A stretch of 55,180 nucleotides of DNA from contig CALJDG010000007.1 of NCBI GenBank assembly GCA_938023865.1, positions 1-55,180 of the forward strand. Reading direction: 5' to 3'. Source of the stretch: an uncultured archaeon. GTDB lineage: Archaea; Thermoproteota; Bathyarchaeia; Bathyarchaeales; Bathycorpusculaceae. Both the position numbers and the translations under genes were made by a program. The notes beneath the pieces are model-generated. The model saw only the letters and a program-made list of their open reading frames with translations. It ran no database searches and was not told where the DNA came from. Within the stretch, counting starts at the first letter, position 1. Every line of letters starts with the position of its first letter. Positions 1,914-54,485 of this stretch are shown in pieces.

Positions 1914-1937
1914 TTCTGTTAGTCACTGATAAACGAA
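1914..1937 (-). repeat. 24-bp interrupted palindrome, diverged copy (site 5)
   Basis: On the plus strand this reads TTCTGTTA, 8 bases, then TAAACGAA. The reverse complement ends in GAC-TAACAGAA, matching the better half of the sites at 47462, 49783 and 51994. It keeps the 8-8-8 geometry but one arm has two changes. It lies in the intergenic region upstream of the KaiC operon and 21 bp from the 27-bp repeat. Confidence 0.5.
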
Positions 1938-33997: not shown

Positions 33998-34566
33998 CAA
34001 TTGAGGAAGTGGGCAAGTTTGTAGGTACGATGGAAAAATCAGTTTATAAGAGCATTGCAGCCTCAATTGTTCAAAGCGGTCTAAGCCTCTCAGATCTTTT
34101 AGCCTTAAAATACTGCGACATAAAAGAAGAGTTTGAAAAGGGCATAACGCCTATATGCCTTAACCTAACAAGGAAGAAAACTGGCATAACTTTTATAACG
34201 TTCTTGGGCACCTGGTCCGTGGAGCTGCTTAAGAATTATTTGGCTGATCAGAAATTGAATGATGAGACACCAGTTTATGACGTATCCTCGAGGGTTGTGC
34301 ACGCCTACTTTCGCAAAATCGCTCAAAAATTTGCTAACAATTTTAAAGGCAGAAATCCATATAGCCCCCATTCGCTTAGGGCGGCTTTTCGCACATTTCT
34401 AAGCGATCGTAAGCTTGATCCGCTATACATAGAGTTTTGGATGGGCCATAAAACACCGGAACAGCAAAGCGCCTACATAATCAAAAGCAGAGAAAGCTGG
34501 CGCCAAACATACAAAGAGCAAGCAGAACCATGGCTAACACCACCACAATACATAAACAGCATTTAG
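33994..34566 (+). CDS. Tyrosine recombinase, catalytic part (split gene)
   Basis: This 190-aa catalytic domain shares an ATGA overlap with the N-terminal part. The catalytic box HSLRAAFRTFL (H-x2-R), the WMGHKTPEQQSAYI segment (second His and nucleophilic Tyr) are present. The first catalytic arginine, expected in TGLRxSEL, is replaced: the sequence is SGLSLSDLLALKY. So either this subgroup uses a different residue or the enzyme is inactive. It lies immediately before the defence operon. Confidence 0.75.
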   Translation: MTIEEVGKFVGTMEKSVYKSIAASIVQSGLSLSDLLALKYCDIKEEFEKGITPICLNLTRKKTGITFITFLGTWSVELLKNYLADQKLNDETPVYDVSSRVVHAYFRKIAQKFANNFKGRNPYSPHSLRAAFRTFLSDRKLDPLYIEFWMGHKTPEQQSAYIIKSRESWRQTYKEQAEPWLTPPQYINSI

Positions 34567-34643
34567 CTGCAATTAAAGGAAGAAACATACGCTAAAGGCT
34601 ACAGAATGTGGTTGTGAGAAGAATGAATTAAAAGTTTTATGGG

Positions 34644-34710: not shown

Positions 34711-34739
34711 CTTTACCGTTCTTAGTTAGGTGTTAACAG

Positions 34740-36815: not shown

Positions 36816-36990
36816 TAAGAAAATTCTTGAGGAAATAGATGCACAAATCGAAGATGAAATTGTTAGAGAACTTGCTAAAAACTTTTTACAGTTTGAACTC
36901 GAGAATTGGAGAATTGAAAAGCTTCATTTTAAAGATTTTTTCACTAATCAGCTTAGCATATATTGTAGAAGAAGGATGCAAAAGCCATGA
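36790..36990 (+). CDS. 66-aa protein in defence operon
   Basis: ATG 36790 is preceded by GGAGG and overlaps the helicase gene by 26 bp. The product is helical and charged (LRISKKILEEIDAQIEDEIVRELAKNFLQFELENWR) with a basic end (YCRRRMQKP). The frame is open further upstream to 36754, but that start lacks a ribosome binding site. Its TGA overlaps the next ATG. The tight overlaps on both sides argue it is a genuine component, perhaps an adaptor between the helicase and the ATPase. No catalytic motif is visible. Confidence 0.7.
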   Translation: MATPRLRISKKILEEIDAQIEDEIVRELAKNFLQFELENWRIEKLHFKDFFTNQLSIYCRRRMQKP

Positions 36991-38966: not shown

Positions 38967-39867
38967 AAAATATTTTCCAAGAGATTTGGCTCTTGATGCT
39001 AAAAATCACGAGAAGTTTAAGGAGTTAGTAGAAAGTGATTTGGCACGGGCACTTTCGCCGTTTTACAAGAAAACTATGAAGGATGTGTTTATGTATGCTC
39101 TTGGTATAGGATTCTTCGATCATAAGAGGTTAAAGTTGCAAAAGAAAGTTGGAACAATACCATTAAGAACTTTGAGCCCTAGCGATATTGCGCTGATAAA
39201 AGCAATAGCAGTGGTTGAAAAGGGGAGCCTAGATGTACTTCACGGTGAAAATATTAAAGAAGTTTTTGAAATTGCTGAGGAGTATGCTAACGGGGGAATA
39301 ACTACCCTCTATAACATGATTTTTGGGGATGAGGCAGGAGATGTCGATAAGAGAATGGAACAACATCTTAGGGAAATCCTAGAAACTCAAGTAGTAGAGT
39401 CAACTAGCAAACCTAGCGTTAAGTCTTACAGCGAAATTCTAAAAGATTTTGAAAATGAACTAAGATCATTTATTCAAAGTAAATTGGAAGAGGAAATTGG
39501 CAAGAATTGGTGGAAGCAAGCCATACCGCCGGATGTTCAACAAAGATGTGAAGAAAGGAGGGAGAATCGAGAAAAACTTCCATGGATGGGTGATGAAGAG
39601 TACACGCTTATTTGCTATGCTGATTTCAATGACTATTTTAAGATAATAACACGCCGAGATAATTGGAAGAAAATTTTCAGTAGATACTTCATTGATGAAG
39701 CTTGGATAAAGACCAAGTTAGTTTTAGAATTAGCACCCATTAGGAACGATATTGCGCACAATAGAGAACTAACTGCCGAAAAAGTTCAAAAATTGCAAAT
39801 ATCAACTCAAGAAATCCTGCGATGCATCCGAAAAACTGCTTCTGGCGATATAGAAGGAGATTATTGA
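38956..39867 (+). CDS. HEPN (Swt1-like) protein with Dnd-associated-type N-terminal domain
   Basis: This protein of about 303 aa begins at ATG 38956 (RBS GGTGGA); an earlier in-frame start at 38896 would lie well inside the ATPase gene. The C-terminal domain ends with LAPIRNDIAHNREL, an Rx4H motif (Arg263, His268) of HEPN ribonucleases and Swt1-type domains. The N-terminal half (KDVFMYALGIGF...IAVVEKGSLDVL...EIAEEYANGGITTLYNMIFG) resembles small proteins annotated as Dnd-system-associated, from memory. It is a plausible RNase or toxin effector, or a structural HEPN adaptor. Confidence 0.7.
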   Translation: MASEKYFPRDLALDAKNHEKFKELVESDLARALSPFYKKTMKDVFMYALGIGFFDHKRLKLQKKVGTIPLRTLSPSDIALIKAIAVVEKGSLDVLHGENIKEVFEIAEEYANGGITTLYNMIFGDEAGDVDKRMEQHLREILETQVVESTSKPSVKSYSEILKDFENELRSFIQSKLEEEIGKNWWKQAIPPDVQQRCEERRENREKLPWMGDEEYTLICYADFNDYFKIITRRDNWKKIFSRYFIDEAWIKTKLVLELAPIRNDIAHNRELTAEKVQKLQISTQEILRCIRKTASGDIEGDY

Positions 39868-39959
39868 CTTGGCAGCACCTATTTTTTGCTTAAAAAGTAT
39901 TTGTCTGCTTCCAATGATCATTACCCAAGTTTTCACAAATTTATTGAGTGGCAATAAAA

Positions 39960-40562
39960 ATGGCATATCAAACACAACCTCAACCTTCGAGGAGAATTTT
40001 GCGGTCAAACTGTGGTAGATGTAATGCAGATATATACATTGACGTTACAGATTTTGAACCCAACATCACTATAACGAATAACTACAGATGTAGAAGTGGG
40101 CATGAAGTAACAGTGTCTGTCAGAAATGGAAGAATAATTCTAATAACTCCTTCGACTATTGAAAGCGATATTGATGATTACCCAGATGTTCCTTTGCAGA
40201 TGAAGATGCTAATAAAAGAGGCATACAAGTGCTCTGCGGCTGACGCACCTGTAGCTGGTGCATGTGTAATCAGGCGTTTGCTTGATGAGTTACTTTACGA
40301 ACTAGGTTTTACCCAAAGATATCTAGGACAGAAAATAACCGAATTTGAGACTAGATGCAACAATGATCAGAACTTCCGAACTAGACATGAGACCCTATTC
40401 CGCCGATTAGAAGTATTCCGAACGATAGCCAACCTTTCGGGGTATCATGCTCATGCCCAAGAAAGACCTATAGTTAACGTAATAAAATCTGAATTTGAGG
40501 AATACTTGCATGTTGTTGAAGGAGCAATAAAAGAGAGATGGCCGAATAGGAGAAATCTATGA
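39960..40562 (+). CDS. Zinc-ribbon / DUF4145-like protein
   Basis: This 200-aa protein has a short zinc-finger-like N-terminus: Cys18-x2-Cys21 and Cys44-x3-His48. The C-terminal helical domain (KEAYKCSAADAPVAGACVIRRLLDELLYELG...ANLSGYHAHAQE) looks like DUF4145, a HEPN-related fold common in defence genes. ATG 39960 has GAGTGG upstream; GTG 39948 is also in frame. It is separated from the previous gene by 92 bp, the only gap in the operon, and overlaps the next gene by 4 bp. Confidence 0.7.
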   Translation: MAYQTQPQPSRRILRSNCGRCNADIYIDVTDFEPNITITNNYRCRSGHEVTVSVRNGRIILITPSTIESDIDDYPDVPLQMKMLIKEAYKCSAADAPVAGACVIRRLLDELLYELGFTQRYLGQKITEFETRCNNDQNFRTRHETLFRRLEVFRTIANLSGYHAHAQERPIVNVIKSEFEEYLHVVEGAIKERWPNRRNL

Positions 40563-42208
40563 TGCAAAGTGAAACAAAGGAAGTTTTCATAAAACAAATT
40601 GATATGATGGTGGCTGCAAAAATAATACAATTGGTAGCATCAGGAATATACAGGACACCAGCAAATGCATTGAAAGAATTGATAAGCAACTCATTCGATG
40701 CTGATGCTACAAAAGTGGACGTTCTTATCGACATTGATGAAAATAACGAAAGGGTTAATTCGATAATCATCAAGGATAATGGGCTGGGCATTAATCCTAG
40801 TGATTTTGCTTTTTCCATGACACATATTGGGGTAAGCTTAAAAAAAATGGAGGGGGCTACGACTGAAAAAGGAAGACCCATAATTGGTAGAATAGGAATT
40901 GGTCTGCTTTCTGTAGGACAAGCCACAAATAAGTTCGAATTTTTATCGGCTACTCGTGAGGGTGTAGGAATGAGAGCAGAAGTAGATTTGAGCCCTTATT
41001 ATGAGGCAATAACAATGACCGAGTCATTGGACACTTTGAAGATTGGTAATATAAAGTTATTTCAGTTCGAAAATCCGTCCAGAGAAACATATACTAAAGT
41101 AACTTTAAGAGAGTTAAAGGAGCCATTTGTTCGTGGTCTTGTGGGGAAGACTGGCTCCAGAGAAAATTTTGATTTTCAAAAAAATCCATCATATAAAGAG
41201 TTTGTAGAATGGTTGGATAAAAAGCAGGTAAAACGTTTAGACGAGATCTCACCATTTAACAGGTTTATGTTTGAGCTTGGACTTTTGACTCCCGTTCGCT
41301 ATCTTGCCGAAGGGCCCGTTAGAGGCGTAGAAACTCCAATATTGTTGAAGATTAAAGAAAGACTGGAAAACTATAATTTCCATGTATACGTTAACGGAGT
41401 AGAGATTTTTAAACCTATATTATTCCCGCATATTTCTGAGTTGCAGCGCCTAGGGAAGGATGGATACAAGGTCTATGAAAAAGAGTTCGATCTTGATATA
41501 AATGGAAGAAAAGTAAGTGCCAAGTGCTATTATTATCATCAGGACATAAGAATAATCCCTTATGAATTACGCGGTTTACTAATTAGAGTAAAAAATGTAG
41601 GAATAGGAACGTATGAGAACAATTTTTCAAAGATAGCCAGTGAAAGTCCTGTAGTTTTACATCAATTAACCGGAGAACTTTATGTTGACGAAGGGTTAGA
41701 CGCTGCACTAAACATCGACAGAAACAGTTTCTTTGAATCCGACGACGCATATCAGAGACTATGGTTAGAAGTTTTAGCATGGGTGAATCCTGAACAACTT
41801 CCAAGTGAAGCGTTAAAGTTTATTAAGCCTACAGCAAATCCTGTAAGTCGAGATATACGTCGAAGGCTAGACAAGATTAGGGAAGAAAAAAAGAAAGAAA
41901 GAGCTAAAGAGATAAGAGAAATATTTATCAGAAAAATTGCAAAAATAGTTTCAATGGCAGGATATCCCACCATTTCTCTTCCTGAACTAAAGATATTAAT
42001 TATTCCAAAGTCGAAAATCGAAATGGACATTAAACCCGAAAGAACATGTATAACTGTAGTTTTGGATCGAAAGTACCCGGAGACAATTCAAAATGCTTTA
42101 ATACTGTTTCTTGCGGCACAAAAAATAGCCATTATCTCTTCTAAAAATTCCCTTCGGGAATTCGAACGTATTTTCACCGCGATCATAAAGGAAGTAGGTT
42201 TAATCTAA
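40559..42208 (+). CDS. GHKL (Hsp90/MutL/MORC-like) ATPase (defence)
   Basis: This 549-aa protein has an N-terminal Bergerat-fold ATPase: N-box ELISNSFDADAT (40-51), G1 DNGLGI (73-78) and G2 GRPIIGRIGIGLLS (105-118). A transducer-like middle region and a C-terminal charged helical segment (IRRRLDKIREEKKKERAKEIREI) follow. There is no histidine-kinase phosphoacceptor domain. Such ATPases act as ATP-driven clamps in DNA repair and appear in antiphage loci. It is the last gene of the operon, converging on dndA with a 76-bp gap. Confidence 0.82.
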   Translation: MMQSETKEVFIKQIDMMVAAKIIQLVASGIYRTPANALKELISNSFDADATKVDVLIDIDENNERVNSIIIKDNGLGINPSDFAFSMTHIGVSLKKMEGATTEKGRPIIGRIGIGLLSVGQATNKFEFLSATREGVGMRAEVDLSPYYEAITMTESLDTLKIGNIKLFQFENPSRETYTKVTLRELKEPFVRGLVGKTGSRENFDFQKNPSYKEFVEWLDKKQVKRLDEISPFNRFMFELGLLTPVRYLAEGPVRGVETPILLKIKERLENYNFHVYVNGVEIFKPILFPHISELQRLGKDGYKVYEKEFDLDINGRKVSAKCYYYHQDIRIIPYELRGLLIRVKNVGIGTYENNFSKIASESPVVLHQLTGELYVDEGLDAALNIDRNSFFESDDAYQRLWLEVLAWVNPEQLPSEALKFIKPTANPVSRDIRRRLDKIREEKKKERAKEIREIFIRKIAKIVSMAGYPTISLPELKILIIPKSKIEMDIKPERTCITVVLDRKYPETIQNALILFLAAQKIAIISSKNSLREFERIFTAIIKEVGLI

Positions 42209-42284
42209 AATATTTCACTTGTAATTGCCAAGTTTTTAGAATAAATTAGTTTTAATATAGCGGTGTTAATTTTCGTAAATAATT

Positions 42285-43451
42285 TTAGAAACGTAATTTT
42301 ATTTTGCGTAATTTATTTACAGCTTGGAATATAAACTCTGTTGCAAATATGATTTCTTCTTCTGTGTTGAATCTAGAAAACCCAAGTCTAATTGCAGTAT
42401 GTGCTCTCTCAGGGTTTAAACCTAAAGCCATGATAACATGTGAAGGTTCTACGTTCAATGTCGTGCATGCAGATCCAGAGGAGAGGGCCAATTTTGAGCA
42501 CACAGCGCGTATCAAAGCTTTATTTTCAACCCCTTCAAAAGACACGTTCAGATTATGACTCAATCTTTTATCCGGATGCCCATTTAATTCTACTGGGCTA
42601 CTTTTTTCTCTAAAAACGTCCCACATATACTTTCTCCATCGATCAAATCTCTTGTTCTCTTCACCCATTTCCTTCACTGCAATTTCAAAAGCCTTACCAA
42701 ATCCAACAATGCCCGGCACATTAAGGGTGCCTGACCTTATTCCTTGCTCATGCCCGCCACCATGGATTATCGGAAAAGGCTTAGCATTAAGATTTGAATG
42801 TCTAACATATAAAGCGCCAACACCTTTGGGCCCGTACATTTTATGAGCTGAAATAGACATAAGATCTACGTTCAATTTTTCAACATCTAATGGAATATGC
42901 CCCGCCGCCTGAGCCGCGTCCGTATGAAAGAGAACACCATACTTTTTTGCAATTTCTCCAATATTATGAATTGGAGCAATAGTTCCAATTTCATTATTGG
43001 CGGTCATAACGGAAATTAGAATTGTCTTTTCACAGATAGCTTCCTCAAGTTTCTTTAAATCCACCATGCCAAATTTATCAACAGGCACATATGTAACACG
43101 TTTACCCATTTTCTCCAAGTGTTTGCACACATCTAATACGGACTTGTGTTCAGTAACACAAGTGACAATATGATCGCCTTTAGCAGCATGCTTTTCGGCA
43201 ATTCCCAGTATTGCTATGTTGTTGGATTCAGTAGCACCGCTTGTGAATATTATGTCTTCAGGTTTTGCATTAATACATCTTGCAATCTTTTTGCGAGCGT
43301 TTTCAACCGCCTCAGAAGCTTCAGACCCGTACAAATGATCAATACTAGAAGCATTACCAAATCGTTCAGTAAAATAGGGAAGCATCTCCTCAAGAACACG
43401 CGGATCTAATGGCGTTGTAGCTTGAGAGTCCAAATATATTGGAAATTTCAT
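42285..43451 (-). CDS. dndA: Cysteine desulfurase, DndA/IscS type
   Basis: This 388-aa class V aminotransferase-fold PLP enzyme releases sulfur from cysteine as an enzyme persulfide. Motifs are FTSGATESNNIAI, HTDAAQAAGHIPLDV, the Schiff-base lysine in SISAHKMYGPKGVGAL, and the catalytic cysteine in LSSGSACTTLNVEPSHV. It supplies sulfur for DNA phosphorothioation. Its ATG overlaps the dndE stop by 4 bp, so it is dedicated to the dnd operon (order C-D-E-A), although IscS functions elsewhere cannot be excluded. Confidence 0.93.
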   Translation of the reverse strand: MKFPIYLDSQATTPLDPRVLEEMLPYFTERFGNASSIDHLYGSEASEAVENARKKIARCINAKPEDIIFTSGATESNNIAILGIAEKHAAKGDHIVTCVTEHKSVLDVCKHLEKMGKRVTYVPVDKFGMVDLKKLEEAICEKTILISVMTANNEIGTIAPIHNIGEIAKKYGVLFHTDAAQAAGHIPLDVEKLNVDLMSISAHKMYGPKGVGALYVRHSNLNAKPFPIIHGGGHEQGIRSGTLNVPGIVGFGKAFEIAVKEMGEENKRFDRWRKYMWDVFREKSSPVELNGHPDKRLSHNLNVSFEGVENKALIRAVCSKLALSSGSACTTLNVEPSHVIMALGLNPERAHTAIRLGFSRFNTEEEIIFATEFIFQAVNKLRKIKLRF

Positions 43452-43828
43452 TTCGGTTTCTTCCCCGTATTGGGTAATAACTCATAAAAATCCATTAGAT
43501 CCTTAACCTTTTGAAAAAGCATTATTGCACCCCGATTAAGATGTGCCCTAAACTGAGGCAAAAGATCTCTTTTGTAATCTAAACCGTCGAGTAGTAACCT
43601 CTCCTTCAACAACGCAATGAAAAATTTATCCCATTCTCCCGTTAACGTATAACGGTTAAATTCCTGTCCATTTTCATCATAATCATTCGGATCCGGTACA
43701 GAGGGTTCACTTAGAGAAAGACAAAAACCTATCCTGCATAAAATATTTGGTGTAAGTCCTGTCCGACCCTTAAGTATAGACAGACGCACCGTTGCGATCT
43801 TACTGATTCTTATTCTATTGAAGCTCAT
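43448..43828 (-). CDS. dndE: DNA sulfur modification protein DndE
   Basis: This 126-aa DndE starts at ATG 43828 (MSFNRIRISKIATVRLS), with GGGAGG upstream inside dndD; the longer open frame to 43924 adds unrelated basic residues. Family hallmarks are LKGRTGLTPNILCRIGFCLSLSEP, GQEFNRYTLTGEWD, FIALLKERL and AHLNRGAIMLFQKVKDL. DndE is a DNA-binding, nick-associated component of the phosphorothioation complex. It overlaps dndD by 14 bp and dndA by 4 bp. Confidence 0.92.
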   Translation of the reverse strand: MSFNRIRISKIATVRLSILKGRTGLTPNILCRIGFCLSLSEPSVPDPNDYDENGQEFNRYTLTGEWDKFFIALLKERLLLDGLDYKRDLLPQFRAHLNRGAIMLFQKVKDLMDFYELLPNTGKKPK

Positions 43829-45854
43829 ATGCAGGTAAAACCTCCCTATTCTCGAAATAGCCCTCTTTGATAAGTGATGTCTTCTGAATTTCATCATATT
43901 CAAGAAGATACGCTTTTGAAACATATTTTTTCAGTACATCAAAAGCTGTTGCGCCTATCTCTGTATCGGTAGAAAAAACTATAACTTGATGGGAAGCGTT
44001 TGAAAAGAAACGTTCCACAATATTTCGCCTATGTTCTTCATCCAACCTTCCCAATGGAGTGTCAATAATAAAAGGAATCGGGCGTCCAGAAGATCGAGCT
44101 AAAGCCCAGCACAACGATACAGCGTATATCTGCCTTTCTCCAGCAGATAGCGTACTCGCTGGGATGAGTACGCCATCACGGTCCACTAAATTGACATTAA
44201 AAGTCAGCGGATCAACATTCACCTTTTGAATAAAATACTTCTTGTTAAACAAAAGGTTGAAGCACTGAAGAAAATTCTGTGAAAATTCGGCTACTTTCTC
44301 TTCACGGAGGACGGTCAAATATTCTTCCATTGCATTTTGGGCTTTTTCTACAAGAACTAACTTTTCTTTTATATTCTCATTTTTAATTTTTTCCTCAATG
44401 CTCTTTTTCAACTCTCTCATAACATGATTAAGTTCATTCTTAATTTGCCGCGCCTTTTCTTCAAGAGAATAAAGCTTCTCTTGGAATTTACCAAGTTTTT
44501 CATGAAGCTCTCCTAATCTGCGAATAAGTGGATGCATTACATCATCCGACGGAACACTAAACAAAAATTTCTCAATTCTTTGGCGGGTTCTAACCAACTT
44601 CTCTAGCTTTGAAGATAGTTGCATCAGACGCGAAGGAACATCATTTAACGCTGATTCAATCCATTTTAACATTTCATCTCTCTCAACCGAAGAGAGAGGA
44701 TGAATGATCTCTTTACAAGAATTATTAGCCAATTTAAATTTATTTTTCAATTCGCCCAAAACGATTCGCACAACTTTCGATCCATCCTCTGGCGACATCC
44801 CTAACGATTCCCACAATGAAGAAAGCTTAATACCTTGCATCAACTCGTCTAAAGCCAAATTAAGAAAGCTTATTGCAGCAACCTTTTGTTGTTCTCTTTC
44901 TTCCTCGATTAGGCGCTTTCTGAGAGCTTGACAAAGGTCTGGAGCATAGGCAAAAGGAAGTAAATTAGAACATAAGGTACGAATCTGGTCTTTGATATTT
45001 TCAATTTCTTCATCTATGCTTTTCTTTTGTGCTTTAAGTTTTTCACGTTTACTTGCAAAACTTCCACCTTCCATAGCAATCTTTATTTCTTGATCCTCTA
45101 TTGCCATCTGAATCTGGTTTATTTTCTTTTTAAACAATTCTTGTTTTGCGAGTGTGCCGTTTAACCTGTTTTCTAATAACTTCTTTCTCTTTTCACACTC
45201 TTGGATTTTGGACTCAATCTTATTGTTTATAGCCTTAGCCTTTCGCGAAGCATATATTTTAATGTCAGACCGGAGGCGTTCAACTATATCTATTCCTAAC
45301 AGTGAATTTATAGAGGTCAAAATATATTCGTTCTCATTTCTTTCTTTTGCAAGCTTTTGAATATGCTCGCCATCGAAGAAGAAAAATTTTGAGATTCTCG
45401 GCGGAAGTAATTCCATTAGGAAGTCTTGCCATTGATCTTCGTCTATATCCTCTAAGACCTTACCATTCTGTTCTATCCTGAGTTCTTCAACAAACTGAGA
45501 AGAAAGATGTCTCCAAGATCTTTTAACAAAGTAGTTATTAACGTGTCCTAACTTTGCATAATCAAATTCAACCGCTACTGAAGCGTATTGTGCTGGCTCG
45601 CCATCAGCGTACCGATAAAATTTTTGATTTATATATTTAGCATATGCTTGACTTGACAGTATCTTGCCCTTGAAAAACCTTCCATATAGACAAATCTTAA
45701 TTGCCTCAAAAAGTGTTGTCTTTCCAGTGCCATTTTTTCCGCCTATTATTACGAGGGGTTTAAAATCATTCGATGCATCATTTACGTCCAAATTTAGACA
45801 TAACTTTCCTTTGAAGGGCCCAAAATTTTCTACTTCTAACCGTTTAAACATCAT
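43815..45854 (-). CDS. dndD: DNA sulfur modification ATPase DndD
   Basis: This 679-aa SMC/RecN-like ATPase has Walker A GGKNGTGKT (38-46), KFFFFDGEHIQKL near residue 165, coiled coil from about 210 to 520, and the C-terminal signature LSAGERQIYAVSLCWAL with Walker B PFIIDTPLGRLDEEHRRNI. DndD couples ATP hydrolysis to DNA structural change for sulfur insertion. It overlaps dndC by 4 bp. It has a relative encoded on the other strand at 36987, with the same FFFFDGE motif. Confidence 0.93.
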   Translation of the reverse strand: MMFKRLEVENFGPFKGKLCLNLDVNDASNDFKPLVIIGGKNGTGKTTLFEAIKICLYGRFFKGKILSSQAYAKYINQKFYRYADGEPAQYASVAVEFDYAKLGHVNNYFVKRSWRHLSSQFVEELRIEQNGKVLEDIDEDQWQDFLMELLPPRISKFFFFDGEHIQKLAKERNENEYILTSINSLLGIDIVERLRSDIKIYASRKAKAINNKIESKIQECEKRKKLLENRLNGTLAKQELFKKKINQIQMAIEDQEIKIAMEGGSFASKREKLKAQKKSIDEEIENIKDQIRTLCSNLLPFAYAPDLCQALRKRLIEEEREQQKVAAISFLNLALDELMQGIKLSSLWESLGMSPEDGSKVVRIVLGELKNKFKLANNSCKEIIHPLSSVERDEMLKWIESALNDVPSRLMQLSSKLEKLVRTRQRIEKFLFSVPSDDVMHPLIRRLGELHEKLGKFQEKLYSLEEKARQIKNELNHVMRELKKSIEEKIKNENIKEKLVLVEKAQNAMEEYLTVLREEKVAEFSQNFLQCFNLLFNKKYFIQKVNVDPLTFNVNLVDRDGVLIPASTLSAGERQIYAVSLCWALARSSGRPIPFIIDTPLGRLDEEHRRNIVERFFSNASHQVIVFSTDTEIGATAFDVLKKYVSKAYLLEYDEIQKTSLIKEGYFENREVLPAYELQ

Positions 45855-47269
45855 TTTCTAATCCCGTTCGCATTACTTAAAAGCAACTCTTCCTCTGTTC
45901 TCCACTCTTCGAAGAGAATTTGGTCTATTCTGTTATATATATGGGCGCGCTTTTCCATACCTTGTGTTTGGAGTTCCGCGTCTAAGAGCTTCATTAGGAG
46001 TTGCATTGGAATATCATGTTTCTTACATACTTCTACAAGTAAAGATTTCTCCTTTGAGGAAAAAGCGACATCATCAGAAATCCAATCCAACTCTTCGCCA
46101 GTAACTTCTCGGTAGATTTTTGGAACAGAATCTTCCCAGTCACCTCTCTCAGTTCTCCAGATCCGCCTTATCTCCCGCAACTCTTCAGAAAGTATCAATT
46201 GGATATTTGGGTCTGGTCCTTCCTTTCTGACGCGCATTTGAGCATTTAAAACCATCCTTAACAATTCCTTACAAAATTCAAGTTTATAAGGCCCCCTTGA
46301 AATAATGCCAGAACCATCACTTTTGAATGAAACAAATCCTTGCCTCCTTTTATATTCACGATAAAGTGGTTTTAGCTTCGGATCTTGAGTTGAAGCTAAT
46401 AAGTTACGTATTTCTAACAATGGCATCAGCCACTCTTCGCCAGAATTGATAAGCGCACTTATGGACTTGTCTTTTGTTACAACCGTGCAAACCCAACAGC
46501 CAAAACGAGAGTTTCCACATGATTGGGTCGTATCATCAATAACAAGAGGGCACTCCCCTTGAGCAGTTTGATATAACGCCACTAAATCTCTATTATTACA
46601 CCCCCATGGCGATGGCACTTGCAAAAGGTAATACCAAACATCGTCTGTAGACCAATCTCGAATAGGAGTATACACATACGCTCTCGGAAATTTAGAATGC
46701 CTAGATAATACAGAATTTGGAATCTGATACAAACTCATAACCTGTGCTCTTGTTGCACTTTCCTGACGACGGACACCTAAAACCAGAACCACCTCACCAT
46801 ACTTTGATAACTTTTCCTGAATAAATCTGTTCGATGGCTGAATCTTAAGACGGTCAGTACACCATCTAAAGCGTTGCTGTGGAGCAGCGTAACCACGACC
46901 AATTAAATTAACCCAAAAGCTCTGAGTTATAAGAGGCCTTAATTTTTCAGTTTTGAATGGCATTTTTTCCCTAAACGAAACGTCATCTATTCTTTTCAAG
47001 GTTCGATTAATAAAATCCACCATAACTGGAGTTTCAACTAGTGTATCAGAAGATATGACATAAACCAATTTTTGGCGTTTCTCGACCGGTAACTCTTTGA
47101 GGGCATACCATACTAATTGAAGAACAGTTGTAGAATCTTTACCACCACTATAACCTATAACCCATGGTCTATTCTCAGCAAGATATATTTGCTGAATCTC
47201 GTCATGTATATCTTGTAAACTTTTTTTCTCAAAAACTGAAGCAGCTGTTTTGTTGTTTAGTTTTCTCAT
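45851..47269 (-). CDS. dndC: DNA phosphorothioation sulfurtransferase DndC
   Basis: This 472-aa PAPS-reductase-like PP-loop ATPase has SGGKDS at residues 41-46, QRFRWCTDRLKI and SCGNSRFGCWVCTVV, which supply the cysteines for the 4Fe-4S cluster. TPIRDWSTDDVWYYLL is typical of DndC. It adenylates the DNA backbone for sulfur transfer. It is the first gene of dndCDEA. An A/T tract at 47297-47307 could be its TATA region, giving a very short leader. No dndB regulator lies beside it. Confidence 0.95.
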   Translation of the reverse strand: MRKLNNKTAASVFEKKSLQDIHDEIQQIYLAENRPWVIGYSGGKDSTTVLQLVWYALKELPVEKRQKLVYVISSDTLVETPVMVDFINRTLKRIDDVSFREKMPFKTEKLRPLITQSFWVNLIGRGYAAPQQRFRWCTDRLKIQPSNRFIQEKLSKYGEVVLVLGVRRQESATRAQVMSLYQIPNSVLSRHSKFPRAYVYTPIRDWSTDDVWYYLLQVPSPWGCNNRDLVALYQTAQGECPLVIDDTTQSCGNSRFGCWVCTVVTKDKSISALINSGEEWLMPLLEIRNLLASTQDPKLKPLYREYKRRQGFVSFKSDGSGIISRGPYKLEFCKELLRMVLNAQMRVRKEGPDPNIQLILSEELREIRRIWRTERGDWEDSVPKIYREVTGEELDWISDDVAFSSKEKSLLVEVCKKHDIPMQLLMKLLDAELQTQGMEKRAHIYNRIDQILFEEWRTEEELLLSNANGIRK

Positions 47270-47461
47270 ACATTCTACATTATCCCATAAAAGCCTTTTA
47301 ATTTTTGCTTTATGCAGAATATCGGAACTGTAATATGTGAACAGAGTGATTGCACCATTAGTTTACAAAAAATTTTGGCAATTTAACGCGAAGCGGATTT
47401 ATACTTTTCATTGAGATGATCTTCAAAATGTCGCCTATGATCATCTTCCCAGCGAGTTTTC

Positions 47462-47485
47462 TTCCGTTAACAGCGACTAACAGAA
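47462..47485 (+). repeat. 24-bp interrupted palindrome (site 1)
   Basis: TTCCGTTA, 8 bases ending CGAC, TAACAGAA. It lies between the dnd operon and the surface-protein gene and shares exact 8-8-8 geometry with sites at 49783, 51994 and 54462. Confidence 0.75.
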
Positions 47486-47561
47486 ATTGGGCGTATTTAT
47501 TCTCGTTTAAAATCTGATTACATCAATAAAATATAATGTTGATAAAAAGGCTCGTAACGGT

Positions 47562-47584
47562 AACATTTTATATTCAAAAATGTT
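47562..47584 (+). promoter_or_regulatory. Operator-like palindrome over the surface-protein promoter
   Basis: AACATTTT at 47562-47569 and AAAATGTT at 47577-47584 form a perfect 8-bp inverted pair with a 7-bp centre. It overlaps both TATA-like boxes (47566-47574 and 47583-47590) of the gene starting at 47605, a position where a bound repressor would block initiation. Confidence 0.5.
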
Positions 47585-47604
47585 TATATTATCTGTAGGA
47601 AGCG

Positions 47605-49752
47605 ATGCCATCAATTAATGGAAGAAAATATCATGCGTTAATTCTTACACTACTGCTAGCGGTAGTATTAGTTAATTTGCAAATGATAAACTTTTTTCAA
47701 CTGGTGAGAGCGGATTATACGTTAAGTGAAACCATATACATACGTGCTGACGGAAGTATATTTCCCGAAGACGCGCCGATATCGACAATCGACAACATCA
47801 TTTACACTTTGACTGATAACATAACTGTAAACGGACCTCCATATGATGGTCTAGTTGTTGAGAGAAATAATGTCATTATTGATGGAGTAAGGCGTACCTT
47901 AAAAGCGGGGGAATGGAGAGGTTGGGGCATAACCCTTAAAGGAAGCAATATAACACTAAAAAATATAAGTATCGAAAACTTCGCTGCTGGTGTTTACATA
48001 CTTGGATCTGCAAATATTGTTCAAGGATGCAATATAGCAAGCTATCGTGGGATTGAAATTCTTTCTCAGAACAATAGAATAATTGATAACAACATAAAAT
48101 GTGGAGTTTATCTCCTTGGTTCCTCAAACAATAACATTATTGCAAACAGGGTGGCAGGAACATACTCCATTTATCTCCATCAAGCGTGTAACAACACCAT
48201 TGTTGGAAATACTTTAAGAGGCAGCGTAAGTATATCCTTTAATTCTTCAGGAAACATGATTTACCATAACAATTTCAGTATACAACTCGCAAACATCTAC
48301 GTGACCGGGAAAAACATCTGGGATAACGGCTATCCGTCAGGAGGAAACTATTGGGACAACTATAATGGCACCGACATATATCGCGGTCCAAAGCAGAACG
48401 AACCAGGGAGTGACGGTATAGGTGACAAGCCTTACGTTATTAATGCCGACAACATAGACCGCTATCCATTGATGAATCCTTATGGGGTTTCTCAACCCCC
48501 AAAATATACCTTGACAATCACAACAACTGTTGGAGGAACAACAGACCCTGCTCCTGGAACATACAGTTACACGGTTAACTCAACAATTCAGGTCATAGCG
48601 ATTCCAGAAGCAAATTTCACGTTTGAGCGTTGGGAACTGGATGGCGTCAATGTAGGTTCAGCCAATCCTATAAGCATTTTTATGAACAAAAGCTATACTC
48701 TACACGCCATTTTCTCACGTCCACGCGAGCCTACTGCCGAATTTTACGTGCAGAGCCCATATATGCCAATACATGCTGGAACACCGGTAACTTTCAACGC
48801 GTCTTCCTCACTTCATGGCTGGAACGGTACCCACGCAATGCCCATAATAGAGTATCGCTGGAACTTCGGAGATGGTAACATTACATCAACACATGAGCCG
48901 GTGCTGACCCATATTTATATGAAGCCGGGGACATTTAATGTCACCTTGACGGTGATTGATAGTGCAGGCTTGAACTCTTCAACTTCCAAGAACCTTTTTG
49001 TAATTATGCCTACAATTATTTCGATTTCAACAAGCTCGCCACCCACGTTGGTAGGCTTCAAAGTGGAAATATACGGAACCTTAAGTGACCTTTATGGAAA
49101 CGGTCTAAAAAACCAAACAGTAGTTATTTACTACACTTTCCTTGGAGTGGACACGTGGATTCCCATCTCCTCAGACATAACAGATAATAATGGTCATTAC
49201 CGCATAGAGTGGATTCCTCAAGCAACTGGATACTTCACACTCAAAGCTTCTTGGGCTGGGAATACAACCCATATTGGAGCAACCAGCACCGTAACCTTGA
49301 ACTCCTTGTCCTATGCGAATCAATACGTTTTTACCGTTGAATCCAACAGCACAATTTCAGCGTTATCCTTCAACACCACAGATAACACACTAAGTTTTAA
49401 CTCAAGCGGACCTAAAGGCACAACAGGCTATGTTAAAGTCACCATCGCAAAAAGCCTAGTAACGAATCCCCAAAACATTAAGGTATTTATCGACGGTATT
49501 CCGACCGAATACGTAATAACTTCCACCAGCAACTCTTGGCTCTTAACCTTTACCCATATGCATAGTGCACGTAGAATAATGATAATGATGGGTCAAGCAT
49601 CCCAATCTTTCTTTGAAAACCCATTCGGAAGTGTGACAATATACGCGACGCTTATTGTAGCAATCATAATTCTCATCATTTTTTCTATAAATAAGAAAAT
49701 GAGAAAGCACCCTCGCGACAAGAAAACAAAATTTAGTTCACTTAAACACTAA
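47605..49752 (+). CDS. Secreted, membrane-anchored beta-helix / PKD surface protein
   Basis: This 715-aa protein has a signal sequence (hydrophobic residues 11-31, likely cut after VRA at 36). A right-handed parallel beta-helix of NosD/PbH1 type follows (about 60-235, repeats such as NRIIDNNIKCGVYLLGSSNNNIIANRV). Then come an InlB-B-like repeat (YTLTITTTVGGTTDPAPGT...NFTFERWELDG, about 305-370), a PKD domain (YRWNFGDGNITSTHEPVLTHIYMKPGTFNVTLTVID, about 395-470) and an Ig-like domain. It ends in one transmembrane helix (about 672-692) and a basic tail. There are many Asn-x-Ser/Thr sequons. A cell-surface adhesin or glycan-binding role is inferred. ATG 47605 has TAGGAAG upstream. Confidence 0.85.
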   Translation: MPSINGRKYHALILTLLLAVVLVNLQMINFFQLVRADYTLSETIYIRADGSIFPEDAPISTIDNIIYTLTDNITVNGPPYDGLVVERNNVIIDGVRRTLKAGEWRGWGITLKGSNITLKNISIENFAAGVYILGSANIVQGCNIASYRGIEILSQNNRIIDNNIKCGVYLLGSSNNNIIANRVAGTYSIYLHQACNNTIVGNTLRGSVSISFNSSGNMIYHNNFSIQLANIYVTGKNIWDNGYPSGGNYWDNYNGTDIYRGPKQNEPGSDGIGDKPYVINADNIDRYPLMNPYGVSQPPKYTLTITTTVGGTTDPAPGTYSYTVNSTIQVIAIPEANFTFERWELDGVNVGSANPISIFMNKSYTLHAIFSRPREPTAEFYVQSPYMPIHAGTPVTFNASSSLHGWNGTHAMPIIEYRWNFGDGNITSTHEPVLTHIYMKPGTFNVTLTVIDSAGLNSSTSKNLFVIMPTIISISTSSPPTLVGFKVEIYGTLSDLYGNGLKNQTVVIYYTFLGVDTWIPISSDITDNNGHYRIEWIPQATGYFTLKASWAGNTTHIGATSTVTLNSLSYANQYVFTVESNSTISALSFNTTDNTLSFNSSGPKGTTGYVKVTIAKSLVTNPQNIKVFIDGIPTEYVITSTSNSWLLTFTHMHSARRIMIMMGQASQSFFENPFGSVTIYATLIVAIIILIIFSINKKMRKHPRDKKTKFSSLKH

Positions 49753-49782
49753 AAGAAGAATAATGGAAACTTTCTTTAATTC

Positions 49783-49806
49783 TTCTGTTAACGATGACTA
49801 ACGGAA
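49783..49806 (+). repeat. 24-bp interrupted palindrome (site 2)
   Basis: TTCTGTTA, 8 bases ending TGAC, TAACGGAA. It is located between the convergent ends of the surface-protein gene (31 bp away) and the ThiF-like gene (46 bp away). Confidence 0.75.
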
Positions 49807-49851
49807 CGTTAGTGATAATTAATTAGTTGCCTAGTGGCACGTAATAGCTTT

Positions 49852-50613
49852 CTATAGACTTTCCCATAATTCTATAAATATTGGTTCTGGCGCTTTTTTT
49901 ATTGGCTCGCCTGAAAGCCATTTTACAATTCCGGTAACAGCTAAGGATGCAGTTAAATAATTTGTGACTCCAAGTTGTGGTCCTGCCAAACTTGTGCTGG
50001 TTAAAAATTTTTTGCCGAGTTTTTTGAAAAGTTTTGAAAATATGGGTGGAGGTTCTGAAACAGTTTTTTGAAATAAGGTCAAGTAGAAAATGTTTCCCTT
50101 TAATTGACCGCCGACAACATCCTCGATCCTTACAGAGTCGGGTGTGAAAATCAAAATATATCCTCCCCAAGCGGGGTTCATTGGAAAAATCACGGGCTTT
50201 CCTTTATTTTGTGCGTAAGAGTTGACAAAATACATTATTTCATCTGGATCAGCCATATTTATGATGACATCTGATCTGTCGATTAGCTCTTTTGCTAATT
50301 TTTTATCTTTCAAAAAATTTGGGTGTGTTTCAATCTTCGATTTTGGGTTAATCTCTTTAATCATTGAAGCTAGTGCTTCAGCTTTATTTTGACCTATATG
50401 TGTAAGTCTAAAGGCTTGACGGTTTAGGTTGTTGACCTCTACGTTATCACCGTCGACTAAGATGAAATTTTCAAAACCTGTGCGTGCTGCCAAAAGTCCA
50501 ATTTGACTGCCTAAACCGCATCCCACAAGAAGAAGTCTGCATTCTTTGATTTTTTGTTGAAGCTTTTTAGAAATGAATCCTCTATTCCTTAAGACTAACT
50601 CTTCATACTTCAT
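49852..50613 (-). CDS. ThiF/MoeB/E1-like adenylating enzyme
   Basis: This 253-aa protein has the E1-like Rossmann nucleotide loop (LLLVGCGLGSQIGLLAARTG, residues 27-46), the Asp and Arg/Asn motif VDGDNVEVNNLNRQAFRL, and INMADPDEIMYFVN. Usual ThiF-family CxxC zinc pairs are not visible, and no ThiS/MoaD-like small protein is encoded nearby. E1-like enzymes adenylate a C-terminal carboxylate or an amino-acid side chain. It is 35 bp downstream of the MFS gene on the same strand and lies next to two PaaK-like adenylating enzymes, which suggests a small-molecule modification pathway. Confidence 0.85.
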   Translation of the reverse strand: MKYEELVLRNRGFISKKLQQKIKECRLLLVGCGLGSQIGLLAARTGFENFILVDGDNVEVNNLNRQAFRLTHIGQNKAEALASMIKEINPKSKIETHPNFLKDKKLAKELIDRSDVIINMADPDEIMYFVNSYAQNKGKPVIFPMNPAWGGYILIFTPDSVRIEDVVGGQLKGNIFYLTLFQKTVSEPPPIFSKLFKKLGKKFLTSTSLAGPQLGVTNYLTASLAVTGIVKWLSGEPIKKAPEPIFIELWESL

Positions 50614-50648
50614 GTTTAATGATTAGAGTTTCATGAATATTTTAATTT

Positions 50649-51893
50649 TTAATATTTTACCATGTTGTTTGCATTTTCGGATTGTTTAGCCTTGATCGGT
50701 TCATAAAGTTTCATGAAGGGTAATATTAGGTTACATACAACTGTAAGTGGAATCAAAGCGAGTAGTATTGCAACAAAAGAATCAGTCAAAGGTGTAATAA
50801 ATGATATTAACATTAAGCCAATACCTGCTGAGAAATTGCTTATGGAAGCAAAAATAGAAAACATTGTTGCCCCAATTTCAGGTGGCGATAACTCCATCAT
50901 AAGTCGTAACTGAGCTACATTTTGAGGGCCAGTCAATACCCCAAGAATTATGGCAAAGGCAAACAACCATGTGATGCTTTGCAAGAAACCAAATGAAAAT
51001 AAAAATACACCGCCCACGGCAAGCATATTTGCAATATAATTCGCTTTTCTTGTTCCTATAATGTCAGAAAACTTACCCATTATGATGCATCCTAAAAATG
51101 TGCCTAAATTCATTAACGAAACGCACCATCCCATCTGAACAGTATCAATTTTTAAATAATCCAAAAGAAAGGGGCCAAATATTACGCCCAATGCTCCAAC
51201 AGTCCAGCTAATAAATAGGTATATTATGCCTAACCATATTTCTCTTTTTTTAGCAACGGCTTTCAGTTTCGCCAAGTTCGGGAGTCTTTCTTTTGTTATC
51301 TTAGGTTCTTTTATTAAAACACCTGAAAGCGACATGAGCGTTGCCATCGCACCGATAATTAAAACTGTGTTGCCCCACCCAAATAGTCCAGAAATAAAGG
51401 CGGTTGTTATACCGCCTAAGGCTGCTCCCAGAGCTCTTCCTCCCCAAGCCACTCCTTGCATTAAACCCATTTTATCTGGTGGCGTAACGTCTATAGTTAA
51501 TCCATCGAGACTTCCATCAGCCATGACCCAGCAAAACAACGATATGATAATCATTCCAATCCATAAAACACCATATGTGGATATTGAAGAAAGAACGCCA
51601 AATGAGATGGCAAACAATATTGCAGAAATAGCCATATAAGGGCGTCTACGTCCATAGCGACCAATAGGAAACTTATCGCTTATCCAAATGATGCCCATTT
51701 TCAAATATGTCGGCGACATCAAAAGAGCATAAACCAACGAAATAGTATCCGGTGGAAGGTTAAATACATCAGCCACATAAACAGAAGTATAAACTGTTAA
51801 CCCGGACATGTAAAAACCTTGCAAAGCGTAAAAAACAAATACAACATCAGGAAACCACGGTCGCCAAACTTCTTTCCAGCTCATGTTTCTCAC
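50649..51893 (-). CDS. MFS transporter
   Basis: This 414-aa integral membrane protein has about 12 hydrophobic helices. The loop motif after helix 2 (ISDKFPIGRYGRRRPYMAIS) and the equivalent in the second half (GKFSDIIGTRKANY) are MFS motif A variants. It resembles the sugar/cation GPH-type group by general pattern but the substrate is unknown. It probably forms an operon with the ThiF-like gene. Met4 (51884) is an alternative start. Confidence 0.88.
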   Translation of the reverse strand: MRNMSWKEVWRPWFPDVVFVFYALQGFYMSGLTVYTSVYVADVFNLPPDTISLVYALLMSPTYLKMGIIWISDKFPIGRYGRRRPYMAISAILFAISFGVLSSISTYGVLWIGMIIISLFCWVMADGSLDGLTIDVTPPDKMGLMQGVAWGGRALGAALGGITTAFISGLFGWGNTVLIIGAMATLMSLSGVLIKEPKITKERLPNLAKLKAVAKKREIWLGIIYLFISWTVGALGVIFGPFLLDYLKIDTVQMGWCVSLMNLGTFLGCIIMGKFSDIIGTRKANYIANMLAVGGVFLFSFGFLQSITWLFAFAIILGVLTGPQNVAQLRLMMELSPPEIGATMFSIFASISNFSAGIGLMLISFITPLTDSFVAILLALIPLTVVCNLILPFMKLYEPIKAKQSENANNMVKY

Positions 51894-51993
51894 AACTTAA
51901 ATCCTTGATTTTATATGTGACCTACAAATTGAAAATACTCCATTTTATTACAATAAATAATTTTGCAATCTTGAACGTGCTAACTTTCTTACT

Positions 51994-52017
51994 TTCTGTT
52001 AGGAGACACTAACAGAA
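51994..52017 (+). repeat. 24-bp interrupted palindrome (site 3, perfect)
   Basis: TTCTGTTA, 8 bases ending ACAC, TAACAGAA: all eight arm positions pair. It lies 8 bp beyond the stop of the PaaK-like gene and about 100 bp upstream of the MFS gene. Confidence 0.8.
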
Positions 52018-52024
52018 TTTTGTT

Positions 52025-53053
52025 TTAGAGGGTTGATGTTTTTGTTTTTCTTTGGGGGTTTCTTATTCCGTTCCATGGGTAGTTGTCTGTTGGCTGGGTT
52101 TTTTCTGCTGTTTCGTTGTTTTCTTTTAGCACTAGGAAGAGGTCTTTTCGTGCTATGATGAATAGTGGGTTGCCTTTTTCGCCATGTTTTGCTATTTCGC
52201 CGTCTTCTTTGATTACCGTGAATATTGCGTAGGGGAAGGCTGGGTAATAGTCTAGGTTGCCGTTGATGTATATGCCTAGTGCGTCTCCGAAGGCGAAGTA
52301 GCCGTATGATGGAATTACGTGTTTGAATTTTTGGGTTAGAAGCTTGTGGTTTTGAGGCGTATAGCCTAAACCGCTTGTCATAACCGCCTTAATGTTTCTT
52401 TTTTCGCCGAAGAATGTTTCGAAGGAGGCAAGCATCATCCATGCGGAGCGTATAAAATTGATTTCTTCGTCATTTTCTAGGAAACGTCTTGTCTTCTCGA
52501 TTTCTGGAGCAAAATATTCGTTGACAACCCTTATCAGCTCTTCTGTTCCTTTGCAGGCTGCGTTTTCAATAATTGGCTTTAATCCTTCCACCCTTAAACC
52601 CACAAAGTATGGGGTTCCACCAGACAACTGCACAAACCTTTCATTAACATCCTTATAAACGCTTGAAGGCCCATGAATTACGGCGTTCCCCATTCTAAAG
52701 CCGATTTTACCAAAATAATAATGGAGGTATTCCGCCTGTTTCTGAATATAATCTTCACTCCATAAACAGTATTTTTGCGGTCCAGTGGTGCCAGAAGAAA
52801 AAGAACACTTAACGCCAGATAAGCCCTTTGGTTTAAAATTCATCCACCCAGTTCTAAGGAGGTTTTGATCAACCTCAAACTCCGAAAGGTTATGCAATGT
52901 CTCATCCAAGTTGTTGCAGATAACCTCATCAATCACGTGCGGGCTTAACCTTCTCCGCCAGTATGGCGTCTCCCTAAAATGAAAGTTTAATACTTCAAGC
53001 AAATATGCTTCAAAGTCAATCTTCCTATCCTCGTACGGAATGTAAAACTGCAT
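52025..53053 (-). CDS. PaaK-like adenylate-forming enzyme, short form
   Basis: This 342-aa enzyme resembles phenylacetate-CoA ligase/LuxE-type proteins. The adenylate-binding loop CSFSSGTTGPQKYCLW is near residues 84-98, and VIPSYGYFAFGD corresponds to the A5-type motif. The protein ends in an Asn/Thr/Lys-rich tail (ENNETAEKTQPTDNYPWNGIRN) without the usual C-terminal subdomain. Canonical PaaK is about 430 aa, so it is truncated or specialised for adenylation only. It is divergent from the second PaaK-like gene with 72 bp between. Confidence 0.75.
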   Translation of the reverse strand: MQFYIPYEDRKIDFEAYLLEVLNFHFRETPYWRRRLSPHVIDEVICNNLDETLHNLSEFEVDQNLLRTGWMNFKPKGLSGVKCSFSSGTTGPQKYCLWSEDYIQKQAEYLHYYFGKIGFRMGNAVIHGPSSVYKDVNERFVQLSGGTPYFVGLRVEGLKPIIENAACKGTEELIRVVNEYFAPEIEKTRRFLENDEEINFIRSAWMMLASFETFFGEKRNIKAVMTSGLGYTPQNHKLLTQKFKHVIPSYGYFAFGDALGIYINGNLDYYPAFPYAIFTVIKEDGEIAKHGEKGNPLFIIARKDLFLVLKENNETAEKTQPTDNYPWNGIRNPQRKTKTSTL

Positions 53054-53125
53054 AATAGAGGATAATTCCGCAAAATTTTAAAACTTTTCCATCAAGAAAA
53101 ATCAGCATACAGGAGTCCTCCCAAC

Positions 53126-54436
53126 ATGGCCATCCCAAAAGAAGAAGTAAACAAGAGAATAAGACATGTCGTAAGCCTCTCCAAAGAAATCCCATGGTAT
53201 GCAAGAAAATATAAAGAATTGGGAATAGACCCCGACAAAATAAAAAGTCCAGAAGATCTGCTCAAAGCCTACCAAAAAGGATTGCATACAACTCCTGCTG
53301 ATTTGCCTGAATTAGTTTATTATAAGCATCCGGAAGCTAGAGGACCTTTTTATACTTCTGGAACTACAGGAAAACCAAAAGAAATTTGGTTAAATCCTGA
53401 TGATGAGAAAAGAATTATACCTCAATTTGAAAGATGTTTTAAAAGAGTCTTAACATCTGCTAGTAAAGTTCTAAATTGTCTTCCAAAAGAACCAGCTATT
53501 TCAGGCTATATGACAAATATTACGCTTTCTGCATTGGGTTCTAATTTTCAGCATATTCCAGCACAAGAAATAAGAGAAAATGTTGAGAGATTTTTAAAAA
53601 AATATAAAGAATTTAACCCAACTCATCTTATGGGCTTAACAACATTTGCGTATAGGTTGCCCCTTCTATTCAACTCGTTGAGAATCGAAAATGTAGACTT
53701 AGCACTTGAACATGTACTTGTTGGAGCAGAACCTTCTAGTATCGAAAGGAGAAAAACTATTGGTGAAGAACTGAGTTCAATGGTATATGATGTTTACGCT
53801 TCTTCTGAAAATGGTATGATAGCCTATGAGGCGCAACCATTTACCGATGAGCATCTAGTGACTTATCCAGAAACTTTAGTATTTGTAGTTAAAGATAAGA
53901 ATGAAATTTCAGAAGGGGATATAGGTGATGTTATAGTTACTAATCTTTATGACCCTTCTGAAAGGCCGAAACCGTGCCTGATACTTTTAAATTATAAAAT
54001 AGGAGATCAGGCAAGATGTATAAAGAAACATGACGGAATTGTAACAGCCATTAGTAGCATAAGAAGAGAGGTTGCTTATCTTGCTGGTGCAAAGTTGGAT
54101 CCTACTGAGATTGAGGCGTGTATTGAGGAGCTGGGAGAATATAAAAAAGAGCTGACCGGCGAATATTGCATTATCAATTATTATGATAAAGAAAGAAGGG
54201 CTGTTGGGGAGATAAGAATAGAAAGTAAGAAGAGGTTAGAAGAACGCGATAAAGAATTAATAGGTAAGAGTTTAAGAGAGAAGATCTATTCAATTAACAT
54301 TCCTGTCAAGACATCAGTTGAAATTACAGGAGATGCGAAACTTTTAATAAATGTGACAGATCCGGGCGAACTCTATAAAGGGTACGAGCACTATATTAAG
54401 CCTGGAAAACCAAAAAGACTAATCACGCTATCATAA
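53126..54436 (+). CDS. PaaK-like adenylate-forming enzyme, full length
   Basis: This 436-aa ANL-type protein has an N-terminal helical region (RIRHVVSLSKEIPWYARKYKELGI), the adenylate loop GPFYTSGTTGKPKEIWL near residues 73-89, VYDVYASSENGMIAYE, and a C-terminal subdomain (DPTEIEACIEEL...EYCIINYYDKERRAVGEIRIE). It is related to phenylacetate-CoA ligases and coenzyme F390 synthetases; the acid substrate is unknown. Base composition is noticeably more A/T-rich (many AGA, ATA, AAA codons) than the core operon, suggesting transfer. ATG 53126 has an upstream GGAG. Confidence 0.82.
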   Translation: MAIPKEEVNKRIRHVVSLSKEIPWYARKYKELGIDPDKIKSPEDLLKAYQKGLHTTPADLPELVYYKHPEARGPFYTSGTTGKPKEIWLNPDDEKRIIPQFERCFKRVLTSASKVLNCLPKEPAISGYMTNITLSALGSNFQHIPAQEIRENVERFLKKYKEFNPTHLMGLTTFAYRLPLLFNSLRIENVDLALEHVLVGAEPSSIERRKTIGEELSSMVYDVYASSENGMIAYEAQPFTDEHLVTYPETLVFVVKDKNEISEGDIGDVIVTNLYDPSERPKPCLILLNYKIGDQARCIKKHDGIVTAISSIRREVAYLAGAKLDPTEIEACIEELGEYKKELTGEYCIINYYDKERRAVGEIRIESKKRLEERDKELIGKSLREKIYSINIPVKTSVEITGDAKLLINVTDPGELYKGYEHYIKPGKPKRLITLS

Positions 54437-54461
54437 ACTACCCCTGTATTTTCTTAAAATC

Positions 54462-54485
54462 TTCTGTTAGTAACGTCTAAAGGAA
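54462..54485 (+). repeat. 24-bp interrupted palindrome (site 4, imperfect)
   Basis: TTCTGTTA, 8 bases ending CGTC, TAAAGGAA. It lies 26 bp after the stop of the full-length PaaK-like gene. The right arm has one transversion relative to TAACRGAA. Confidence 0.6.

Follow-up and report, generated by a model that had tools for sequence, protein, structure and literature searches.

The window analyzed here, a stretch of 55,180 nucleotides from contig CALJDG010000007.1 of an uncultured archaeon of the Bathyarchaeales, holds a complete array of five 24-bp sites, designated A to E by the 6-bp core at their center, that is headed by a split recombinase gene and in which site A is weaker. Comparison with related genomes makes it highly probable that these are recombination sites of a chromosomal cassette-exchange platform, where the identity of the core would fix which gene blocks can be swapped and would keep them in order. 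As site A at 34558 precedes the series B to E, the array spans positions 34558-54485. The genome is a 1.65-Mb archaeal draft in 115 contigs; in the following, G denotes a genome, C a contig within a genome and L an extracted locus. The motif is TTCYGTTA-N8-TAACRGAA, and the window is laid out as follows.

33629..34566, + strand: split recombinase gene Int322, XerA-like, in overlapping frames 33629-33997 and 33994-34566
34558..34581, + strand: site A (AGCATTTAG CTGCAA TTAAAGGAA), core perfect, 3 arm mismatches, overlapping the 3' end of Int322
34740..47269, no single strand: A-B module, a Dnd-Pbe DNA phosphorothioation defence island (PADLOC)
47462..47485, + strand: site B (TTCCGTTAA CAGCGA CTAACAGAA), by pattern match and core class
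47605..49752, + strand: B-C module, a secreted PKD-domain surface protein of 715 amino acids (aa; PKD, E=5e-16)
49783..49806, + strand: site C (TTCTGTTAA CGATGA CTAACGGAA), by pattern match and core class
49852..51893, - strand: C-D module, a ThiF-family protein and an MFS transporter (ThiF, E=1e-35; MFS_1, E=5e-32)
51994..52017, + strand: site D (TTCTGTTAG GAGACA CTAACAGAA), by pattern match and core class
52025..54436, no single strand: D-E module, two divergently transcribed genes (AMP-binding, E=1.5e-10, for 53126-54436)
54462..54485, + strand: site E (TTCTGTTAG TAACGT CTAAAGGAA), one mismatch to the pattern
1914..1937, - strand: imperfect B site with core CAGTGA, two mismatches, of another array and in opposite orientation

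A first-pass annotation of this DNA had listed sites at 47462, 49783, 51994, 54462 and 1914, at intervals of 2321, 2211 and 2468 bp for the first four, and had seen that they separate the surface-protein, ThiF-MFS and PaaK blocks. All five sites are present, three of them perfect, and the intervals and the partition are correct, but a sixth site, A, had been overlooked. With up to three mismatches, the window contains five matches to the motif where 1.09 are expected, a number reached in no shuffle. The copy at 1914, described as a weaker fifth member, is indeed weaker; it is an imperfect B site in opposite orientation and belongs to a different array. Its right flank is 92% identical to that of the B site at G002:C46:5986, while the left flank is unrelated. 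Similarly, site E has its right flank, but not its left, in common with E sites on G002:C15 and G002:C2. Three sites had been placed 8-31 bp after stop codons, and this holds: 49783 and 54462 begin 31 and 26 bp past stops on the + strand, and 8 bp separate the end of 51994 from the stop codon of gene 52025-53053 on the - strand. The latter gene had no match in a Pfam search, and its neighbor 53126-54436 encodes an AMP-binding (PaaK-like) enzyme. That the spacers differ and that the sites have a polarity was likewise seen correctly; the spacers are not arbitrary, however, as they are drawn from a small number of 6-bp cores that recur (here B, C, D and E), and it is the core word that provides the polarity. 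The earlier interpretation is partly supported; it missed the ordered spacer code, the start of the array at 34558 beside the recombinase gene and the recurrence of the sites in other genera and families.

This code becomes apparent across the 101 perfect-arm sites from the extracted loci, which were matched on their arms alone. In 93 of them the core lies within one base of one of six words (A CTGCAA, B CAGCGA, C CGATGA, D GAGACA, E TAACGT, F CACCTC), as do only 5.4% of random 6-mers, and note that the classes were read from the same data, so that the effect size is meaningful here and an exact probability is not. Neighboring sites up to 20 kb apart have the same orientation in 91 cases and a different one in 4. 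Along the shared orientation the cores follow the order A-B-C-D-E, with 78 ascending, 6 equal and 7 descending steps, while ten thousand label shuffles yielded a mean of 36.4 ascending steps and a maximum of 51. Four of the seven descending steps lead from E to B or C, at the end of one array and the start of the next. Ordered arrays were found in at least seven genera, and complete A-B-C-D-E arrays are also present on G008:C1 and, with a weaker A, on G120:C12. Neighboring sites of one class occur as D..D, C..C and B..B. In two places E and B sites are only 44-52 bp apart (G001:C1 1223924/1223976 and G010:C2 312687/312731); these pairs are junctions of consecutive arrays with no cargo in between. 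No F-like site was found in a search upstream of the recombinase gene of the window.

The sites also mark the points where homology between genomes ends. When sites of the same class are compared, one flank is often nearly identical right up to the site, whereas the other shows no relation. Over all extracted loci, homology ends inside a 24-bp site 43 times, against 2.5 expected (maximum of 7 in 200 trials), and within 10 bp of a site 92 times, against 4.8 expected. Among pairs that share a single flank, 36 are of the same class and 7 of different classes, with 19% expected to agree by chance. If the shared flank is the left one, mismatches are few in the left arm and many in the right, the reverse is true for a shared right flank, and the cores are nearly identical. 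Arm variants thus travel together with their flank, which places the switch point in the 6-bp core or at its edge. A B-C block of ~747 bp is 98.4% identical between G001:C3 and G010:C2, with a copy of 88% on G120:C12, and the three have no homology in either outer flank. At a conserved locus, an FrhB/CBS gene following Mrp-type antiporter genes, different arrays starting at B are found in G001, G008 and G010, and 9.4 kb of 97.4% identity stop at site B, beyond which the arrays differ. In 15 of the 19 genomes that have this gene, no site is found within the ~1.5 kb of flank examined. Note that the 9.4-kb stretch (L064 516-9918 and L070 10599-20000) is shared by two different genera, by either recent transfer or mis-binning. 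On the same locus L064, at ~14160-14185 (G001:C2), a decayed D site of which the right arm alone is kept joins two blocks that are separate in G010.

These data bear directly on three explanations that do without a dedicated enzyme. Two of them had been raised before, the first being that the palindromes are operators of one regulon bound by a transcription factor, in line with their symmetry, their intergenic location and the similarity of their arms. Operators do not predict discrete, ordered cores in constant orientation, nor homology that breaks at the site, nor convergent 3' positions such as that of 49783, and as the sole explanation they are already contradicted by the breakpoints and the co-segregation of arms; we hold this reading to be most improbable. 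The second, RNA hairpins or terminators near gene ends, draws on the potential 9-bp stem with a 6-nt loop and on the proximity of several sites to stop codons, but site 47462 is located between divergent starts, the order and orientation of the arrays are independent of gene direction and the DNA breakpoints fall into the loop, so that it merits equally little credence. Both leave the breakpoints, the co-segregating arms and the adjacent recombinase genes unexplained. Finally, homologous or microhomology recombination at short repeats would produce breakpoints from shared sequence alone, and the sites are indeed repeats. As the arms are alike across classes, events between classes should then be common, contrary to the 36 same-class cases out of 43, and the recombinase genes beside the sites are not accounted for either. 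We therefore consider this explanation very unlikely.

The genes that abut the first site belong to two families, Int322 and Int438, named here for their lengths of 322 and 438 aa. Int322 contains the PF00589 domain (E=1e-7). In the window, frame 33994-34566 matches PF00589 Phage_integrase with E=1.7e-8, and the split gene product is 76-82% identical to an intact 322-aa homologue at G010:C9:184532-185497; judging by its sequence, the split copy is probably inactive. A site A or B is found at the 3' end of Int322 (-9 to +56 bp) in 8 of 10 copies, and copies of at least 50% identity are almost confined to genomes that have the sites. Int438 had no match in a Pfam search, but its profile finds XerA (4a8e, E=2e-4), and its predicted fold, a model of modest quality with a predicted local distance difference test (pLDDT) score of 72, retrieves 4a8e in Foldseek with a probability of 1.00, along with other tyrosine recombinases. 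Its catalytic residues R148, R270, H297 and Y305 are conserved. Site A follows 11-523 bp past the 3' end of Int438 in 12 copies; three further copies have no A site downstream, and for one more there was too little downstream DNA. The domain match of Int322 and the catalytic residues and predicted fold of Int438 place both families in the tyrosine recombinase superfamily; they presumably act on the adjacent sites. With homology ending at the sites, arm differences following the flanks and XerA-like genes abutting the first site, the earlier suggestion of recombinase core sites is strongly supported.

The most serious competitor is a host XerA that acts in trans on dif-like sites, so that the enzyme of chromosome-dimer resolution would drive an archaeal counterpart of the Acinetobacter dif modules. 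The arm-6 bp-arm geometry is dif-like (PMC8371274), Int322 and Int438 resemble XerA most closely, and many arrays lack an adjacent recombinase. However, none of the genes in 41 relatives reaches the curated cut-off for XerA, and Int322 and Int438, which match only Xer-type NCBIfam models and these weakly, remain far below it with 54.3 and 40.8 bits versus 220. The near-complete, array-free genomes G014, G036 and G118 are also free of these sites, which means that the arms do not represent the dif of this lineage, and the first site is abutted by two dedicated recombinase families. We thus regard host XerA as an unlikely, though not negligible, driver of the arrays.

For the cassette-exchange platform we propose that a single recombinase would bind two near-symmetric arms of ~9-11 bp at each site, and that the 6-bp core between them would serve as the overlap for strand exchange. 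Each site would recombine only with one of matching core, for instance A with another A. A block flanked by sites of different class could then not loop out by itself and would be stable in place, but pairing of two arrays at both of its boundaries would allow its replacement, in a recombinase-mediated cassette exchange. A circle could instead integrate at a single site and give rise to duplicates such as D..D, and the duplicated classes described above fit such events. With exchange limited to like sites, all of which face in one direction, the sequence from A to E would be kept irrespective of cargo. Int322 and Int438, the two XerA-like tyrosine recombinases, are the likely enzymes; their genes, located immediately ahead of the first site, would themselves constitute an exchangeable block to its left.

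Several observations weigh against this proposal, beyond the definition of the core classes from the same data. The seven pairs that join different classes indicate imperfect class fidelity, and at L175 (G120:C15) 3751-3774 a C core lies in reverse between symmetric arms, with B and D sites of the usual orientation as its neighbors; given these cases, the matching rule is not absolute. A close copy of Int322 or Int438 is absent from several array-bearing genomes (G004 and G112; G008 has homologues of 30-44%), and many copies are broken, the one in the window included, so that another recombinase may act. All data derive from metagenome-assembled genomes (MAGs), with cross-genus identities of up to 97-99.9%, some of which may reflect mis-binning, although a rearrangement between near-identical sequences would even then remain a rearrangement at the sites. 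Last, the sequences themselves show the sites, the discrete and ordered cores, the breakpoints, the co-segregation of arms and the position of the recombinase genes, while the enzyme, its catalysis, the intermediates and the vehicle of transfer are inferred.

The genome of the window has 24 perfect-arm sites, and the genome-wide search that had been advised yielded 37 matches at up to two mismatches, versus 0 for the reversed control, which is clearly not the chance frequency that was to refute the observation. In a scan of 163 genomes of the order, about a dozen held most of the sites and the control pattern was almost absent; the same cores also recur in other families, and in other classes, of the phylum. 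Arrays are located in contigs of up to 1.46 Mb. The expectation that sites are intergenic was borne out for 128 of 132, only 4 lying within open reading frames (ORFs), even though ~80% of the sequence is ORF. In the genome of the window, many sites are less than 1 kb from a contig end (contigs C5, C7, C10, C20, C21, C34, C70, C81 and C93), about a third by hand count versus ~14% expected, an excess that points to variation among strains at the arrays. Relatives of Int438 that are followed downstream by an A-type site (L215, L225, L226, L229) are found in MAGs labelled Nitrososphaeria, Brockarchaeota and Aenigmatarchaeota, representing either a wider spread or binning errors. A scan of viral contigs with all five cores returned 0-3 matches per contig and no contig with two classes, and viruses are thus not an evident carrier.

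A literature search found no earlier description of a comparable system in archaea, with most subscription journals outside its coverage. In the dif modules, or pdif, of Acinetobacter Rep_3 plasmids, shuffling requires identical or nearly identical 6-bp spacers, and the exchange of single modules between matching spacers has been proposed (PMC13141974). The likeness to pdif drawn by the first-pass annotation extends to gene modules that are bounded by 6-bp-spacer sites and exchanged where spacers match, but not to asymmetric, alternating arms or a plasmid location: an Acinetobacter site is made up of two distinct halves for XerC and XerD, successive sites alternate in orientation to give C and D modules, and the sites reside on plasmids and rely on host XerCD (PMC13141974), whereas here the arms are near-symmetric, one orientation prevails, the ordered core set is found across genera, and arrays headed by XerA-like recombinase genes are located on chromosome-sized contigs. 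Integrons, archaeal ones included, also place a recombinase gene by the first site, followed by unrelated genes separated by sites, and many arrays lack the recombinase, as in CALINs (clusters of attC sites lacking integron-integrases; PMC9668308). However, neither Int322 nor Int438 matched the integron-integrase (IntI-type) subfamily models, the 24-bp symmetric palindromes with 6-bp cores and exchange inside the core appear unlike attC sites, which fold as a single strand, and each boundary has its own core and fixed place, between modules of up to 13 kb with genes in both orientations. The arrays work like Acinetobacter dif modules or integrons, yet features that define each of these are lacking or were not seen. 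With XerA/dif, where XerA cuts at the ends of a 6-nt spacer (PMC8371274), they share inverted arms around a 6-bp core, as well as the resemblance of Int322 and Int438 to XerA in sequence and, for Int438, in predicted fold; dif, however, is a single copy with one core, as opposed to dozens of sites with about six cores. Engineered cassette exchange with orthogonal lox sites likewise employs one enzyme with several incompatible cores and matching-core exchange (PMC10850332), whereas the present arrays are natural, with at least five cores in conserved order and a different enzyme.

On a broader reading, which in our judgement is evenly balanced, this is an addressed cassette system and a categorically new gene-transfer platform, in which archaeal genera, perhaps phyla, share the core code A-E and exchange slot by slot with the order kept, F and the recombinase block close a cyclic F-Int-A-B-C-D-E unit, and the recombinase is itself one exchangeable slot. 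The proposed platform would be a natural, ordered DNA assembly specified by overlaps, resembling the assembly of parts with matching ends in synthetic biology. It would carry genes for defence, surface functions and metabolism between Bathyarchaeia and perhaps neighboring archaea of hot springs, and would explain how unrelated gene blocks are swapped without loss of the remaining array. Cassette boundaries in these uncultured genomes would become predictable by a simple search, and genome engineering would be offered recombinases with several ready-made, mutually incompatible sites.

The A-B slot of the window is filled by the Dnd-Pbe system as one 12.9-kb block, with these genes (E-values from PADLOC):

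34740-36815: PbeA, E=1e-236
36987-38966: PbeC, E=4e-160
38896-39867: PDC-M34B
40559-42208: HATPase-like
42285-43451: DndA, E=5e-165
43448-43924: DndE, E=2e-50
43815-45854: DndD, E=5e-211
45851-47269: DndC, E=1e-194

At the other end of the arrays, Zn-ribbon integrases occur near some E sites (G010, G008) and were set aside as the acting enzyme for their inconsistent placement. G010 has two convergent pairs of such tyrosine integrases, at L068 6872-9294 (414 and 346 aa) and L069 16659-19281 (417 and 410 aa), one at an E site and the other less than 8 kb from one. To the right of E on G008:C1 (928038-936834) and G004:C52 (7078-10236), we found a further palindrome with a different core and a protein of ~170 aa with a ribbon-helix-helix-like N-terminus and no curated match, accompanied by an archaeo-eukaryotic primase (AEP)-type primase in G004 or a Zn-ribbon tyrosine integrase in G008. 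This plasmid-like backbone may be the vehicle of the arrays or a neighbor.

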